From assembly GCF_900104925.1 (NCBI RefSeq), contig NZ_LT629735.1:3827001-3891000 (forward strand): 64,000 bases of DNA. Reading direction: 5' to 3'. Below, one piece after another: positions 19,524 through 37,978 of the stretch. Each line of letters begins with the position of its first letter. Position 1 is the stretch's first letter. The translations under genes and the position numbers were made by a program. The notes under the pieces are model-generated. The model ran no database searches. It was not told the origin of the DNA and saw nothing but the letters and a program-made list of their open reading frames with translations. This DNA is from Opitutus sp. GAS368. Lineage in GTDB: Bacteria; Verrucomicrobiota; Verrucomicrobiia; Opitutales; Opitutaceae.

Positions 19524-19553
19524 ACCACTAATCCACACTAATGGGCCACTAAT
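19524..19553. repeat. Left 30-bp inverted repeat of the first GxxExxY cassette
   Basis: ACCACTAATCCACACTAATG then GGCCACTAAT pairs with the right arm at 19949-19978 with one mismatch in 30. Eleven bases containing GGAG separate it from the GxxExxY start codon. Confidence 0.9.
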
Positions 19554-19948: not shown

Positions 19949-19978
19949 ATTAGTGGCCCATTAGTGTGCATTAGTGGT
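19949..19978. repeat. Right 30-bp inverted repeat of the first GxxExxY cassette
   Basis: ATTAGTGGCCCATTAGTGTG then CATTAGTGGT is the mirror of 19524-19553. It abuts the GxxExxY stop codon on one side and ends 5 bases before the hemL ATG on the other. Confidence 0.9.
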
Positions 19979-23110: not shown

Positions 23111-23184
23111 TGTCATTCTGAGCGCAGCGAAGAATCCAGTTCAGTGCGCCAATCGCTGGATCCTTCGCTGCGCTCAGGATGACA
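23111..23184. repeat. TGTCATTCTGAG-family palindrome (23.1 kb)
   Basis: TGTCATTCTGAGCGCAGCGA is mirrored by CGCTGCGCTCAGGATGACA. It fills the gap between the S55 protein gene and the next secreted-protein gene and ends 15 bases before the latter's start. Confidence 0.85.
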
Positions 23185-23199
23185 CATAAATAATCTCGC

Positions 23200-25455
23200 A
23201 TGCATCATCGCCGTTCCTCCCTTCCCTTTTTTGCGTTTTTTGCGCTTTTTGTGGCCAATCTCTCCGCCGACCCGCTGACCAAGCAGCTCGAGATTGATTT
23301 CGGGCGCGACGTCGCCAGCCGCAACCTCAAGGGCCTGGCCACGCGCTCCGATGGGCGCGTGCTGCCGGGGCCGGTCTTCACCGACCTCGCCGGTCCGAAG
23401 CTCGGTGAAATCCTCTGGGTGATGAAACCGGTGGCGGCGAACAAGTTCCTCGTCGGCACCGGCCCCGCCGGCAAGGTGCAGGAGGTCAGCTTCAACGCCA
23501 AGGACGGCTCCTACACCGCCCGCGAGGTCGCCGACGTCCCCGAGACCAACGCCCTGGCCCTGCTGCCCCGGCCCGACGGCAGCCTGCTCATCGGCACCTC
23601 GCCGACCGCCGCGCTCTACCTCTTCAAGGACGACAAGGCCACGGCGCGTGTGCCGCTGCCCGCCGACTCGGTGTTCGACTTCCTGCCTTTGCCCGACGGC
23701 ACCGTGCTCGCGGCCACCGGCAACCCCGGCAAAATCTATCGCCTCGACCTGAAGAAGCTCGCGGCGGCGGGGCTCATCGAGGGCAAGGCCGGTGACGACA
23801 AGCTGCTCGCCGACAAGGGCGTCACGCTCTTCGGTGAGATCCGCGACCGCAACGTGCGCAAGCTGGCGCGCCTCGCCGACGGCCGCATCATCGCCGGGTC
23901 CTCGCCGAAGGGTAACATCTATTCCTTTGGCACCGCGGGCGGCCCGCCGCTCATCCTGCAGGAGAACCGCGACGCCGAGGTGGTCGACCTGCTGCCGCTC
24001 GACGAGGGCGGCTTCTATGCGGCGCTCGTCTTCACCACCGAGACGGCCAGCCGGCTCAACCGCCCGGTCCCGGTCGATCCGAAGGGTGCGGAGACGAAGG
24101 ACAAGCCGCCCGTCGCCGTCGTCGAGGAGAAGCCCGGCTTCACCGGTCGCTCCAGCATCGTCCTCTTCCCCACCGACGGATTCCCCGAGACTGTCATGAC
24201 CAAGCCCAACATCGCGCTCTACCGTCTCGCGCGCCACAACGGCTGGCTGCTGCTCACCGCTGGCGAGCTCGGCGACGCCTTCGGCTACGACCCGGTCTCG
24301 CGGCGCGCGCTCACGTTCGCCGGCAGCGCCTCGAGCCAGCTCAACGACCTGGCGCCGCTGGGCGACGGCCGCTTCCTGCTGCTGCGTAACAACGCCCCCG
24401 GCCTCGCCCTGCTGTCCTTCGCCGCCGCCCCGGTGCGTGAGCTGGAGACCAAGCGGCTCGATCTCGGCGTGGCCGCCGACCTCGGCGCCTTCCGTTTCGC
24501 GCGGTTGCGCGGCGTGGAGCCCGTGGCGCTCAAGGTCGAGGTGCGGACCAATTTCGGCAGCGACGAGCTGGAGGGCTGGACGCCCTGGACCGAACTCAAG
24601 GCGCACGACGGGGCCTTTGCCGCGGAGGGCCTGCGCGGCCGCTACGTGAAGTTCCGGCTGCAGGTCACCGGCGCCCCCACCGACTTCCAGCTCGACAAGG
24701 CCACGCTGTATCACCTGCCCCAGAACCGGCGCCCGCTGCTGACCGACTTCCGGATCCTGCCGCCCAACCTCGGTCTGATTCCCGCCGGCGACCGGCCGGC
24801 CAGCGCGAGCGCCACGCTCGGCCAGCTGTTGTCCCCCGGTCCCCGCGGGGACCGGGACGATAATGAGAAGCGGAGGGATGCGCTCCTGGGCAGCCAGGTG
24901 GTGCCCTCGCCCGGCACACAGATCGTCTACTGGGCCGTCACCGATCCCGACGGGGACAATCTCACCCAGACTTTCTCGATCCGGCCGGAGAACGCCGACA
25001 CCTGGACCGACCTCGCGGTGAACACCACCGACAGCTACGTCCAGTTCGAGACCGGCGGCCTGGCCGAGGGCCTCTACCTCACGCGGCTCACCGTCAGCGA
25101 ACAGGCGCCCCGCCCCGCCGCCCAGCGCCTGAGCTACACCTTCGAGACCGACAACCTGCTGGTCGACCGCACCCCTCCCGTCCTCAGCGCCCCGATCATC
25201 ACACGCGCGAACGGCCTGCTGAAGATTTCCATCACGGGTCGCGACGCACTGTCTCTGCTCGAGGGCGCCGAGTTCGTGCTGAACAACGGCGACCATGAGA
25301 CGGTGGTTCATCCGGCCGACGGCATACTCGACGGCCGCGAGGAAACCTTCGTGGCGGAAATACCCGAGGCAGTGGCCGCCGGTGCGACCTCCGTGGAGAT
25401 CACCGTCTACGACCGCCCCGGCAACGCCGCCTCCATCCGCGTGCCGCTGAAGTAG
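23200..25455 (+). CDS. Large secreted protein with beta-propeller-like N-terminal part
   Basis: A 751-residue exported protein of unknown function. A signal peptide (PFFAFFALFVANLSA) is followed by about 380 residues of repeated strands with the pattern LADGRIIAGSSPKGNIYSF, LPDGTVLAATGNPGKIYRL and LPRPDGSLLIGTSPTAALYLF, which suggest a beta-propeller. The C-terminal 330 residues contain strand-rich, Ig-like stretches (VYWAVTDPDGDNLTQTFSIR). A perfect GC palindrome at 24835-24856 lies inside a charged loop. It follows the S55 peptidase gene on the same strand and may be its partner. It was not recognised as a named family. Confidence 0.7.
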   Translation: MHHRRSSLPFFAFFALFVANLSADPLTKQLEIDFGRDVASRNLKGLATRSDGRVLPGPVFTDLAGPKLGEILWVMKPVAANKFLVGTGPAGKVQEVSFNAKDGSYTAREVADVPETNALALLPRPDGSLLIGTSPTAALYLFKDDKATARVPLPADSVFDFLPLPDGTVLAATGNPGKIYRLDLKKLAAAGLIEGKAGDDKLLADKGVTLFGEIRDRNVRKLARLADGRIIAGSSPKGNIYSFGTAGGPPLILQENRDAEVVDLLPLDEGGFYAALVFTTETASRLNRPVPVDPKGAETKDKPPVAVVEEKPGFTGRSSIVLFPTDGFPETVMTKPNIALYRLARHNGWLLLTAGELGDAFGYDPVSRRALTFAGSASSQLNDLAPLGDGRFLLLRNNAPGLALLSFAAAPVRELETKRLDLGVAADLGAFRFARLRGVEPVALKVEVRTNFGSDELEGWTPWTELKAHDGAFAAEGLRGRYVKFRLQVTGAPTDFQLDKATLYHLPQNRRPLLTDFRILPPNLGLIPAGDRPASASATLGQLLSPGPRGDRDDNEKRRDALLGSQVVPSPGTQIVYWAVTDPDGDNLTQTFSIRPENADTWTDLAVNTTDSYVQFETGGLAEGLYLTRLTVSEQAPRPAAQRLSYTFETDNLLVDRTPPVLSAPIITRANGLLKISITGRDALSLLEGAEFVLNNGDHETVVHPADGILDGREETFVAEIPEAVAAGATSVEITVYDRPGNAASIRVPLK
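24835..24856. repeat. GC palindrome inside the 23.2-kb gene
   Basis: CCCGGTCCCC-GC-GGGGACCGGG is a perfect 22-base dyad in frame within the coding sequence. It encodes a Pro/Arg/Asp-rich loop (SPGPRGDRDD) between better-folded segments. It may be another palindromic insert, but no second copy was found to prove this. Confidence 0.4.
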
Positions 25456-25467
25456 GAAGCAGTCTCA

Positions 25468-25492
25468 CACAAAGTAGCAAAGCAGCTAAGTC
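25468..25492. repeat. Left arm flanking the second GxxExxY gene
   Basis: CACACAAAGTAGCAAAGCAG then CTAAG is mirrored by TTTGCTCCTTAGCTGCTTTG at 26094-26113. The pair belongs to the same family as the repeat at 34894-34973 and brackets the GxxExxY gene. Confidence 0.6.
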
Positions 25493-26040
25493 AGTGCGGG
25501 ATTAGGGAGTGTTTTCAAACCCAACAAATACCCGTTTCCTGTCATTCTGAACAAAGTGAAGAATCCATGCGTTCGCTCGCGATATGGCCTTCGTTGCCGT
25601 GGATCCTTCGCTCCGCTCAGGATGACAAACCGGGTTTGAAAACACTCCCTAAACAACCGGCGGATGCCGTCCTTGATCAGCGACACGTTCAAGTTGACGA
25701 GCAATCCGAGCTGCAATCCGGTGAGTTTGAGATAGGTGATGGTCTGCGCTTGGTGCACTGGCAGCAGGGCATCAACCGCCTTTAGCTCGAGTAGAACCTT
25801 GTCAGCGACGATGAAGTCGGCCCGAAAACCGACATCCAGTCGACGTGACCTGTAATTCAATGGGATGGCTGCCTCGCGGGCATGCCGGATGCCGCGATGC
25901 TTGAATTCTTCCTCCAAGCAGGAGGCATAGACACTTTCCAACAAACCCGGTCCCATTTCATTATGAAGGTGGAATAGTGCGTCGACCGACTTGCGGGCGG
26001 CTTCTTCCACGTCTGGCGTGATATCCAGTTTTCGATTCAT
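25486..26040 (-). CDS. GxxExxY protein carrying a 49-residue mobile-element insert
   Basis: A 184-residue GxxExxY protein. The family motif is G-L-L-E-S-V-Y, and the nuclease-like core contains ADFIVADKVLLELKAV with Gln in HQAQTITYLK. The normal protein would have about 135 residues and end in GIRRLFNPALT. Between Phe130 and Asn180 a 147-base TA-flanked element adds exactly 49 residues in frame (RECFQTRF to LKTLP). The fold should survive because the insert is near the C terminus. Like the first GxxExxY gene it is bracketed by inverted repeat arms, of a different family. Whether it is functional is unknown. Confidence 0.85.
   Translation of the reverse strand: MNRKLDITPDVEEAARKSVDALFHLHNEMGPGLLESVYASCLEEEFKHRGIRHAREAAIPLNYRSRRLDVGFRADFIVADKVLLELKAVDALLPVHQAQTITYLKLTGLQLGLLVNLNVSLIKDGIRRLFRECFQTRFVILSGAKDPRQRRPYRERTHGFFTLFRMTGNGYLLGLKTLPNPALT
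25503..25651. mobile_element. TA-flanked 147-bp MITE-like element, copy 1
   Basis: The element starts TA-GGGAGTGTTTTCAAACCC and ends GGGTTTGAAAACACTCCC-TA, giving perfect 18-base terminal inverted repeats and TA on both sides. It contains a TGTCATTCTGAG-family palindrome. The reverse complement matches copy 2 (37830-37978) at 144 of 149 positions. It interrupts the GxxExxY gene without breaking the frame. The TA flanks resemble those of IS630/Tc1/mariner-type elements; no transposase is present. Confidence 0.85.
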
Positions 26041-26093
26041 GGTGGTGGCGGCCCGTCGTCAGCAGAATGCCAATGCAGTAATGGCTGTCCACG

Positions 26094-26122
26094 CCTTTGC
26101 TCCTTAGCTGCTTTGTGTTCTC
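26094..26122. repeat. Right arm flanking the second GxxExxY gene
   Basis: CTTTGCTCCTTAGCTGCTTT then GTGTTCTCC is the mirror-type arm of 25468-25492. It matches the right arm at 34945-34973 closely and lies between the GxxExxY start and the xerC stop. Confidence 0.6.
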
Positions 26123-26129
26123 CCCTGCT

Positions 26130-27080
26130 TCACGCCCGGGGGTGCGCCTTGGCATAGATCTCCTTCAGCCGCGCGACGCTGGTGTGGGTATAGATCTGCG
26201 TGGTCGTCAGGTTCGCGTGGCCGAGCAGCTCCTGCACGGTGCGCAGATCGGCGCCGGAATTGAGCAGGTGCGTGGCGAAGGAGTGACGCAGCTTGTGCGG
26301 CGAGAGATCCATCGGCAGGTCGGCGAGCGCCAGGTATTTCTTCACCAGCAGCTGCACGGCGCGCACGGTCATCCGCCGGCCGGGGGCCGCCACGACGACC
26401 GGATCGGCCGGCCCGGTGCCGTGCGCGAACTCGGCGCGGAATTTTGCGAGCACCTTCATCGCCGTGGCGCCGAGCGGGCAGATGCGCTCCTTGCGGCCCT
26501 TGCCCAGCACGCGGGCGCTGCCGGCGCCGAAGTCGACGGCGCCATAGTTCAGCGCCACCACCTCGCTCACGCGCAGCCCGCCGCCGTAAAGCAGCTCGAG
26601 CACGAGCCGGTCGCGCCAGGCGTCGTGCGCCGGGAGCGACTTGTTCTTCAGGAGCAGCGCCGGCCCGTCCAGCAGCGCGGCCGCCTGCGCCTCGGTCAGG
26701 AACTTTGGCAGGTTTTTTTGCAGCTTCGGCAGCGGCGCGCCGGCGAAGGGGTTGCGCTCCAGCCGGCCGCGTTGCATCCAGTAGCGGTAGAACGCGCGCA
26801 GGCCGGACACATGGTTGTGCAGCGTGCGGCGGTCGTAGCGGCGCTGGGCCTCGATGACAAAGTCGCGCACGTCGCGCGCGGTCAGCACGTCAAAGCCGCC
26901 TTCCCCGCGCTGGCTGCGCTGGAGCCAGTGAAAGAAATCAACGAAGGCCTGCCCGTAGTTGCGCGCCGTGTAGACGGAGTAGCGCCGCTCCTTCCGGAGG
27001 TGGTCGAGGAAAGGCTGGAGCCACGCGCCGGCGATGTCCGCGGGCAACGCGTCTGGCGTCTTTTCTGCCTTTGGTTTCAT
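26130..27080 (-). CDS. xerC: Tyrosine recombinase XerC-type
   Basis: A site-specific recombinase of about 316 residues that resolves chromosome dimers with a XerD partner. The N-terminal SAM-like core-binding domain (FLDHLRKERRYSVYTARNY) is followed by the catalytic domain with Arg in GGGLRVSEV, His-x-x-Arg in HKLRHSFATHLL, His in LGHANLTTTQIYTH and the nucleophile Tyr in the last motif. Upstream starts at 27092 (ATG) and 27128 (TTG) lie inside a palindromic repeat, so the ATG at 27080 was chosen. It is downstream of mazG on the same strand. Confidence 0.9.
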   Translation of the reverse strand: MKPKAEKTPDALPADIAGAWLQPFLDHLRKERRYSVYTARNYGQAFVDFFHWLQRSQRGEGGFDVLTARDVRDFVIEAQRRYDRRTLHNHVSGLRAFYRYWMQRGRLERNPFAGAPLPKLQKNLPKFLTEAQAAALLDGPALLLKNKSLPAHDAWRDRLVLELLYGGGLRVSEVVALNYGAVDFGAGSARVLGKGRKERICPLGATAMKVLAKFRAEFAHGTGPADPVVVAAPGRRMTVRAVQLLVKKYLALADLPMDLSPHKLRHSFATHLLNSGADLRTVQELLGHANLTTTQIYTHTSVARLKEIYAKAHPRA

Positions 27081-37756: not shown

Positions 37757-37829
37757 TTCACCACTAATTGTCACTAATGCCTCACTCACTCCAGGGCATC
37801 TGATTAATTAGTGTGCCGTTAGCGTGGAT
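37757..37829. repeat. Empty copy of the CACTAAT inverted repeat
   Basis: ACCACTAATTGTCACTAATG on the left and ATTAGTGTGCCGTTAGCGTG on the right have the same order and spacing of motifs as the arms around the first GxxExxY gene, but only about 25 bases lie between them. The right arm is interrupted at its TA by the element at 37830-37978. Confidence 0.7.
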
Positions 37830-37978
37830 TAGGGAGTGTTTTCAAACCCGGTTTGTCATCCTGAGCAAAGCGAAGGATCCACGGCAACGAAGGCCATATC
37901 GCGAGCGAACGCATGGATTCTTCACTTCGTTCAGAATGACAGGAAACGGGTATTTGTTGGGTTTGAAAATACTCCGTA
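37830..37978. mobile_element. TA-flanked 147-bp MITE-like element, copy 2
   Basis: This unit begins TA-GGGAGTGTTTTCAAACCC and ends GGGTTTGAAAATACTCCG-TA and contains a TGTCATCCTGAG palindrome. It differs from the reverse complement of copy 1 at only five positions. The sequence on each side, GCGTGGAT-TA and TA-GTGGTGACT, joins to GTGGATTAGTGGT when the element and one TA are removed, which is the intact arm of the CACTAAT repeat. Confidence 0.88.

Follow-up and report, generated by a model that had tools for sequence, protein, structure and literature searches.

An in-frame palindromic MITE with IS5-type ends near the 3′ end of a GxxExxY gene in Opitutus sp. GAS368

The GxxExxY gene and its insert

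The host genome is a single contig of 4.15 Mb, which contains the 64-kb stretch analysed here (the window). Within it lies a GxxExxY (PDDEXK_3) gene that carries a short palindromic element close to its 3′ end (Table 1). The predicted protein matches Pfam PDDEXK_3 (PF13366) over residues 15–128 (E 4.6e-36) and NCBIfam GxxExxY (TIGR04256) over residues 16–129, corresponding to positions 4–115 of the 116 in the profile (E 7e-37); with 126.3 bits against a cut-off of 35, it belongs to the latter family. The insert begins inside codon 130, about six codons ahead of the original stop, and adds 49 amino acids in frame. When the element and one TA are removed, F130 (TTT) adjoins N180 (AAT), giving a 135-residue open reading frame that ends in GIRRLFNPALT. 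An earlier note made from these letters had placed the normal end of the family at about 135 residues, and the end of both profiles at residues 128 and 129 agrees with that placement. As read from the sequence, the lengthened protein would retain the nuclease-like domain in full, followed by 49 residues encoded by the element and the last five of the original protein. An AlphaFold model computed from the single sequence had a mean pLDDT of 33.5, too poor for any statement on the tail.

Table 1. Coordinates of the features at the GxxExxY locus and of the second A-type copy in the window (L078, orthologous gene in a relative of the same genus).
Feature	Position	Strand	Details and basis
GxxExxY (PDDEXK_3) gene	25486..26040	-	184 aa with the insert, 135 aa without; ORF list, PF13366, TIGR04256
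Conserved GxxExxY domain, residues 15–129, wholly upstream of the insert	25654..25998	-	PF13366, TIGR04256
Original gene tail, (N)PALT-stop, retained downstream of the insert	25486..25502	-	compare NPDLT-stop in L078
A-type MITE, TA-145 bp-TA	25503..25651	.	sequence, genome copies, empty orthologous site in L078
Left terminal inverted repeat, 18 bp	25505..25522	+	TA target copy at 25503–25504
Right terminal inverted repeat, 18 bp	25632..25649	-	TA target copy at 25650–25651
Palindromic core	25540..25627	.	matches to query positions 38–125; whole-element RNA fold
Second A-type copy	37830..37978	-	between called genes; adjoins an ATTAGTG-type array

The element is bounded by the inverted repeat GGGAGTGTTTTCAAACCC, which is perfect over 18 bp, or over 21 bp when the TA and one adjacent base are counted, and its arms are separated by 109 bp. 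Chance pairing of such repeats is excluded by an excess of the repeat pattern in the window (four matches with at most three mismatches vs 0.03 expected) together with the recurrence of the whole 149 bp in the genome. The earlier view of a mobile element that duplicates TA is also borne out. Folded as RNA, the whole element forms one long hairpin (−76.5 kcal/mol, z −10). The ORF list contains no frame within it that is long enough for a transposase, and an Rfam search of positions 25300–26300 returned no match up to E 1. The element thus has the features of a miniature inverted-repeat transposable element (MITE): it is short and transposase-less, and it has terminal inverted repeats (TIRs), a target duplication, an empty site in a relative and dispersed copies. 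It is also a palindromic repeat of roughly 100–150 bp with an open frame, as expected of a Rickettsia-type element.

The empty site was identified in genome G020 from the same genus, where the orthologue of the GxxExxY gene (L078) shares 67.7% identity over residues 1–130. The insert is missing there and a single TA is present, TTTAATCC, as the earlier note had anticipated for some close relatives; the sequence across the site reads CGAATATTTAATCCGGATCTGACTTAG and the protein ends in GIQRIFNPDLT*. The neighbours of L078 match those in the window, with frames upstream that we take to encode MazG-like and XerC-like proteins and the 751-aa gene downstream. We inspected 43 non-self GxxExxY homologues selected from a larger number of matches, and none of the 42 informative ones (L103 was uninformative) contains the 49 element residues; they end 0–34 residues past position 130. 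Because L078 has the same neighbours, no insert and one TA, and because the homologues lack the added residues, the insertion is, on this comparison of sequences, derived and precise. It was seen in one genome only. Many of the GxxExxY genes among L078–L120 are followed directly after the stop by degenerate periodic repeats (e.g., CTTTGCGTCTTTGCG, CTCCGTGTCCTCCGTGG and ATTAGTGNCC), which often end near GTGGTT ahead of the next gene.

Repeat family, target site and candidate IS5-family partners

Twenty-three full-length copies of this element, designated A-type, were identified in the host in two lengths, about 149 bp (12 copies) and about 170 bp (11 copies). The host also contains one 190-bp B type and a C type with similar ends and a different interior of 251–411 bp, of which 12 copies were examined. 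These 36 host sites (23 A, 1 B and 12 C) leave out truncated or one-ended copies, such as L024, L025, L028, L041, L042 and L046–L048. The second copy in the window is open in the same frame as the insert, as had been claimed earlier, and sits between called genes. Besides the host, 18 of 56 relatives match the element at E 1e-5, many by the core only, and TIR-like sequence is present in 12 of 20 genus members.

Similar palindromic cores also occur without IS5-type ends in L027, L029, L030 and relatives in the genus. It is as if the core were a separate repeat captured between transposon ends. In L041 (1009–1501), a C-type copy harbours an A-type copy in its 3′ part, at its CCTTTTAG sequence. 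Near positions 23113–23200 of the window, a minus-strand frame ends in a CHPERSEGS-type peptide just before the start of the 751-aa gene, which suggests another core-like palindrome. A 1388-bp element (2383437–2384824 of G000; L031 1438–2825), considered as a candidate autonomous copy, proved to be an A-type MITE into which a transposase gene of the IS110 family has inserted.

Both flanking TAs are intact in 14 A copies, and 13 of these lie in YTAR (the exception is L021), a quartet that accounts for 72 of 317 non-coding TAs in the window. Judged by these flanks, the target is YTAR, represented by TTAA at the GxxExxY insertion. In many copies the left and right quartets are not identical (e.g., TTAG and CTAA in L002), so the duplication corresponds to TA and not to four bases. 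One flanking TA reads CA or TG in six of the 23 A copies (L010, L011, L015, L016, L017 and L022) and a further three (L003, L020 and L023) have some other change at one end; none of the 23 has both flanks changed. The surroundings of the insertions are also of note. Arrays of ATTAGTG-type motifs, mostly spaced 10–11 bp apart, occur in the window at 19526–19553, 19950–19977 and 37762–37814, and such motifs are found within 60 bp of 11 of the 36 host insertion sites vs 0.66% of random window points. These arrays look like insertion hotspots.

Elements with matching ends and a transposase were identified outside the host. The genome G007 contains an 860-bp element (L121) with the TIR AGGGCGTGTTTTCAAACC, TA flanks and two overlapping transposase frames, corresponding to DUF4096 and DDE_Tnp_1, which match the NCBIfam IS5-family model NF033580. 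Its TIR differs from that of the MITE by one mismatch per end. On a contig of groundwater Verrucomicrobia (L156), frames homologous to the IS5-type transposase ORFs of L121 are bordered on the left by an exact copy of the MITE terminus and on the right by a copy with one difference. The MITE and elements encoding an IS5-family transposase (L121 and L156) therefore have a TIR in common, and transposase ORFs homologous to IS5-family ones lie beside matching TIRs in L137, L154–L157 and L160. The OrfB-like protein is present in seven of 21 genus genomes; in the host it was not found at E 1e-10, nor did the host genome give a match to NF033580 at E 0.001. Given the IS5-type ends in relatives and the absence of such matches in the host, the most likely view is that an IS5-family transposase once moved the MITE and that it is now an orphan. 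The MITE and the IS elements have only their ends in common, so that cross-mobilisation of the MITE by the IS transposase is an inference.

Origin of the in-frame insertion

We consider it very probable that a non-autonomous MITE with IS5-family ends inserted at a YTAR site (TTAA) about six codons before the GxxExxY stop and duplicated the TA. The transposase would have come from an IS5-family element since lost, or never kept, by the host. The insertion would have been tolerated because it fell after the conserved domain and had a fitting length and frame. The wider family, in turn, would persist because most copies lie between genes and because the TAG ends remake stop codons when these are struck.

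It is possible, though rather unlikely, that the GxxExxY gene is already in decay and can be dispensed with, the insert being carried along neutrally. One copy could be dispensable, since several further GxxExxY genes are present in the host (seven were retrieved). However, the domain remains intact and matches nearly the whole profile, and dN (0.25) is far below dS (about 2.5, saturated) in the comparison with L078. The gene lineage is accordingly under constraint, although most of the time so sampled may predate the insertion.

A protein-coding palindrome resembling the Rickettsia elements, kept open by selection and read in frame inside genes, is a very unlikely description of the family. 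The insert is stop-free in frame, and both its 147 bases and the 168 bases of its sister form are multiples of three. However, the 149-bp form is open in two of six frames, so that about one in three random insertions within a gene would keep the frame open by luck. Ten of the 11 copies of about 170 bp (L013–L023, with the exception of L019) have a stop in at least one of these two frames, as judged by eye and allowing for ends trimmed by one or two bases, and neither the B insert (188 bases) nor 10 of the 12 C inserts have a length that is a multiple of three. A mechanically defined frame of at least 60 aa crosses the element at 15 of the 35 other host sites, but it is composed mostly of the element's own codons, and the seven with most flanking residues (L005, L015, L018, L020, L039, L043 and L044) have no Pfam match. 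Long frames beside L004, L017, L127, L128, L074, L032 (+ strand), L133, L137 and L144 are probably not genes and likewise have no Pfam match. Overall, none of the other 35 host sites examined shows read-through of a recognisable gene, and in-frame insertion does not recur among them. Our gene caller also reported no read-through genes, which carries little weight since the GxxExxY gene itself went uncalled. The open-frame odds, the insert lengths and the absence of read-through genes led us to reject selection for an open frame. Of the resemblance to Rickettsia elements drawn in the earlier note, the palindrome with an open frame stands; the habit of inserting in coding frames is not supported, and the further in-frame copies that it expected in genes did not appear at these sites.

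Duplication of TA is typical of the IS630/Tc1-mariner superfamily. A mobiliser of that type would account for the duplication observed here, and a TA-targeting MITE of pneumococci has been linked to an IS630 element (PMC2229807). We nevertheless set this origin aside as highly improbable, because the transposase ORFs seen beside matching TIRs match IS5-family models (L121) or are homologous to ORFs that do (L137, L154–L157 and L160). Finally, the added residues could be a C-terminal domain that this GxxExxY lineage inherited and its relatives lost, which would be in keeping with the intact reading frame but has a negligible probability: the same 149 bp occur between genes and beside unrelated genes, and the idea is refuted by the clean single-TA site of L078 with its matching NPxLT tail, alongside the 42 informative homologues.

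Insertions at stop codons and comparison with known elements

Returning to the repeat family and its IS relatives, we found that in 14 of the 51 examined sites the element starts exactly at the stop codon of a gene, that its removal leaves TAA or TAG in frame, and that the element's own TAG remakes the stop. These comprise eight of the 36 host sites and six of 15 sites in relatives; the latter were picked for recognisable ends, other, mostly single-ended sites being left out, and selection bias is possible. In the host, A-type copies occupy the stops of genes for an MFS transporter, a GDYXXLXY protein, GcvT, an RlmA-type methyltransferase and a class IV aminotransferase, and of one unnamed gene; the B type lies at the stop of a histidinol dehydrogenase gene and a C type at that of a small HTH protein gene. 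The sites in relatives involve an EamA transporter, a NUP permease, a 2OG-oxygenase, a GH5 enzyme and an isocitrate/isopropylmalate dehydrogenase family protein, and in one relative the IS itself sits at the stop of a methyltransferase gene. All but one (L021) of the 14 genes have Pfam matches. The RlmA gene (L014) was counted by Pfam and the empty reading, not by the gene caller, and in L011, L053 and L069, where the far TA reads TG, the empty codon assumes an original TA. For GcvT, the same codon ends the gene in 17 of 18 relatives, the remaining sequence being truncated, indicating that the element sits on the native stop.

Among YTAR quartets that are non-coding or at stops, the share at stops is 9 of 81 in the window, 7 of 208 in the host flanks and 16 of 197 in loci of relatives not chosen by the element. 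The observed 14 of 51 is two to three times the window's non-coding YTAR share, a baseline derived from a crude, home-made codon-usage gene caller trained on the window. As the RlmA gene at L014 and the GxxExxY gene both escaped this caller, non-coding YTAR is over-counted. The one-sided binomial P for 14 of 51 is 0.001 at a baseline of 0.111, 0.016 at 0.15, 0.13 at 0.20 and 0.39 at 0.25; with the host sites taken by themselves (8 of 36), the corresponding values are 0.041, 0.16, 0.43 and 0.71.

Three other sites touch recognisable genes: the GxxExxY gene and two in G018. In one of these (L139), an IS end lies in an RHS-repeat gene. In the other (L070), an S49 peptidase gene ends at the element's TAG; without the element the codon would be TAT and the frame continues, so this looks like a changed or shortened gene end. 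The L070 site is not YTAR and was not counted among the stop-codon sites.

A YTAR in frame 0 is a stop codon and both element ends begin TA-G, so insertion in either orientation remakes a TAG stop. The YTAR target, combined with selection against insertions that break genes, could explain most of the stop-codon pattern; active targeting of stop codons is possible. It is conceivable, though less likely than not, that the family is suited to survive at stops, being kept at or drawn to gene ends and leaving a hairpin at the stop, and that the GxxExxY insertion is a near miss turned into a C-terminal extension. The pattern offers a testable account of how TA-type MITEs could build up in gene-dense genomes without gene breakage, and it also covers the occasional gain of coding sequence from them.

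Several described elements share parts of this behaviour. ERIC/RU-1 elements of enterobacteria are 127-bp MITEs with TA termini, TA duplication, a hairpin fold and stop-free frames, and are reported fused in frame at the C-terminus beyond a conserved domain, as in an Erwinia amidase (Delihas; PMC2759123, PMC2229807). The present element resembles them as a TA-flanked hairpin MITE with a stop-free frame and a C-terminal fusion past the conserved domain. It differs in sequence and host phylum, and also in that both an empty site in an orthologue and a candidate autonomous partner of the IS5 family were identified. For QMITE1 and QMITE2 of Coxiella burnetii, all insertions in functionally annotated genes are described as lying at 3′ ends, sometimes supplying only the stop codon, with one in-frame C-terminal extension (PMC5896051). 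Here, too, some insertions lie at gene 3′ ends and supply the stop or, in one gene, extend the C-terminus. However, QMITEs have variable direct repeats and a source stated to be indeterminate (PMC5896051), whereas our family has TA in YTAR and TIR-matched IS elements. Rickettsia palindromic elements are palindromes of about 105–150 bp that add residues in frame to many genes (PMC10969869, PMC2229807), and their target duplication is marked as uncertain in PMC2229807. The present palindromic repeat likewise adds in-frame residues, but to a single gene among the examined sites. Lastly, IS5 of E. coli has the target consensus C(A/T)A(G/A) and a 4-bp duplication (PMC11677980). The transposase family is the same and that consensus is close to YTAR, but only TA is duplicated here.

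In titles and abstracts, with subscription journals mostly outside the search, we found no account of this element or of YTAR-targeting IS5 MITEs at stop codons. The element looks like a conventional MITE with IS5-type ends, and its in-frame C-terminal extension has precedents in ERIC/RU-1, Rickettsia palindromic elements and QMITE; fusions of this kind have been described in Proteobacteria, namely in enterobacteria, Neisseria, Rickettsia and Coxiella. The GxxExxY case adds a clean, well-documented lengthening of a predicted protein by a MITE, accompanied by an empty site in an orthologue and by an autonomous family with matching TIRs. The exact 19-base terminus was also found in distant phyla (L147, L158, L159 and L161, Calothrix; L150, Defluviitaleaceae), and in two of these loci, L150 and L159, the ends are paired over spans of 219 and 319 bp, which suggests further MITEs.
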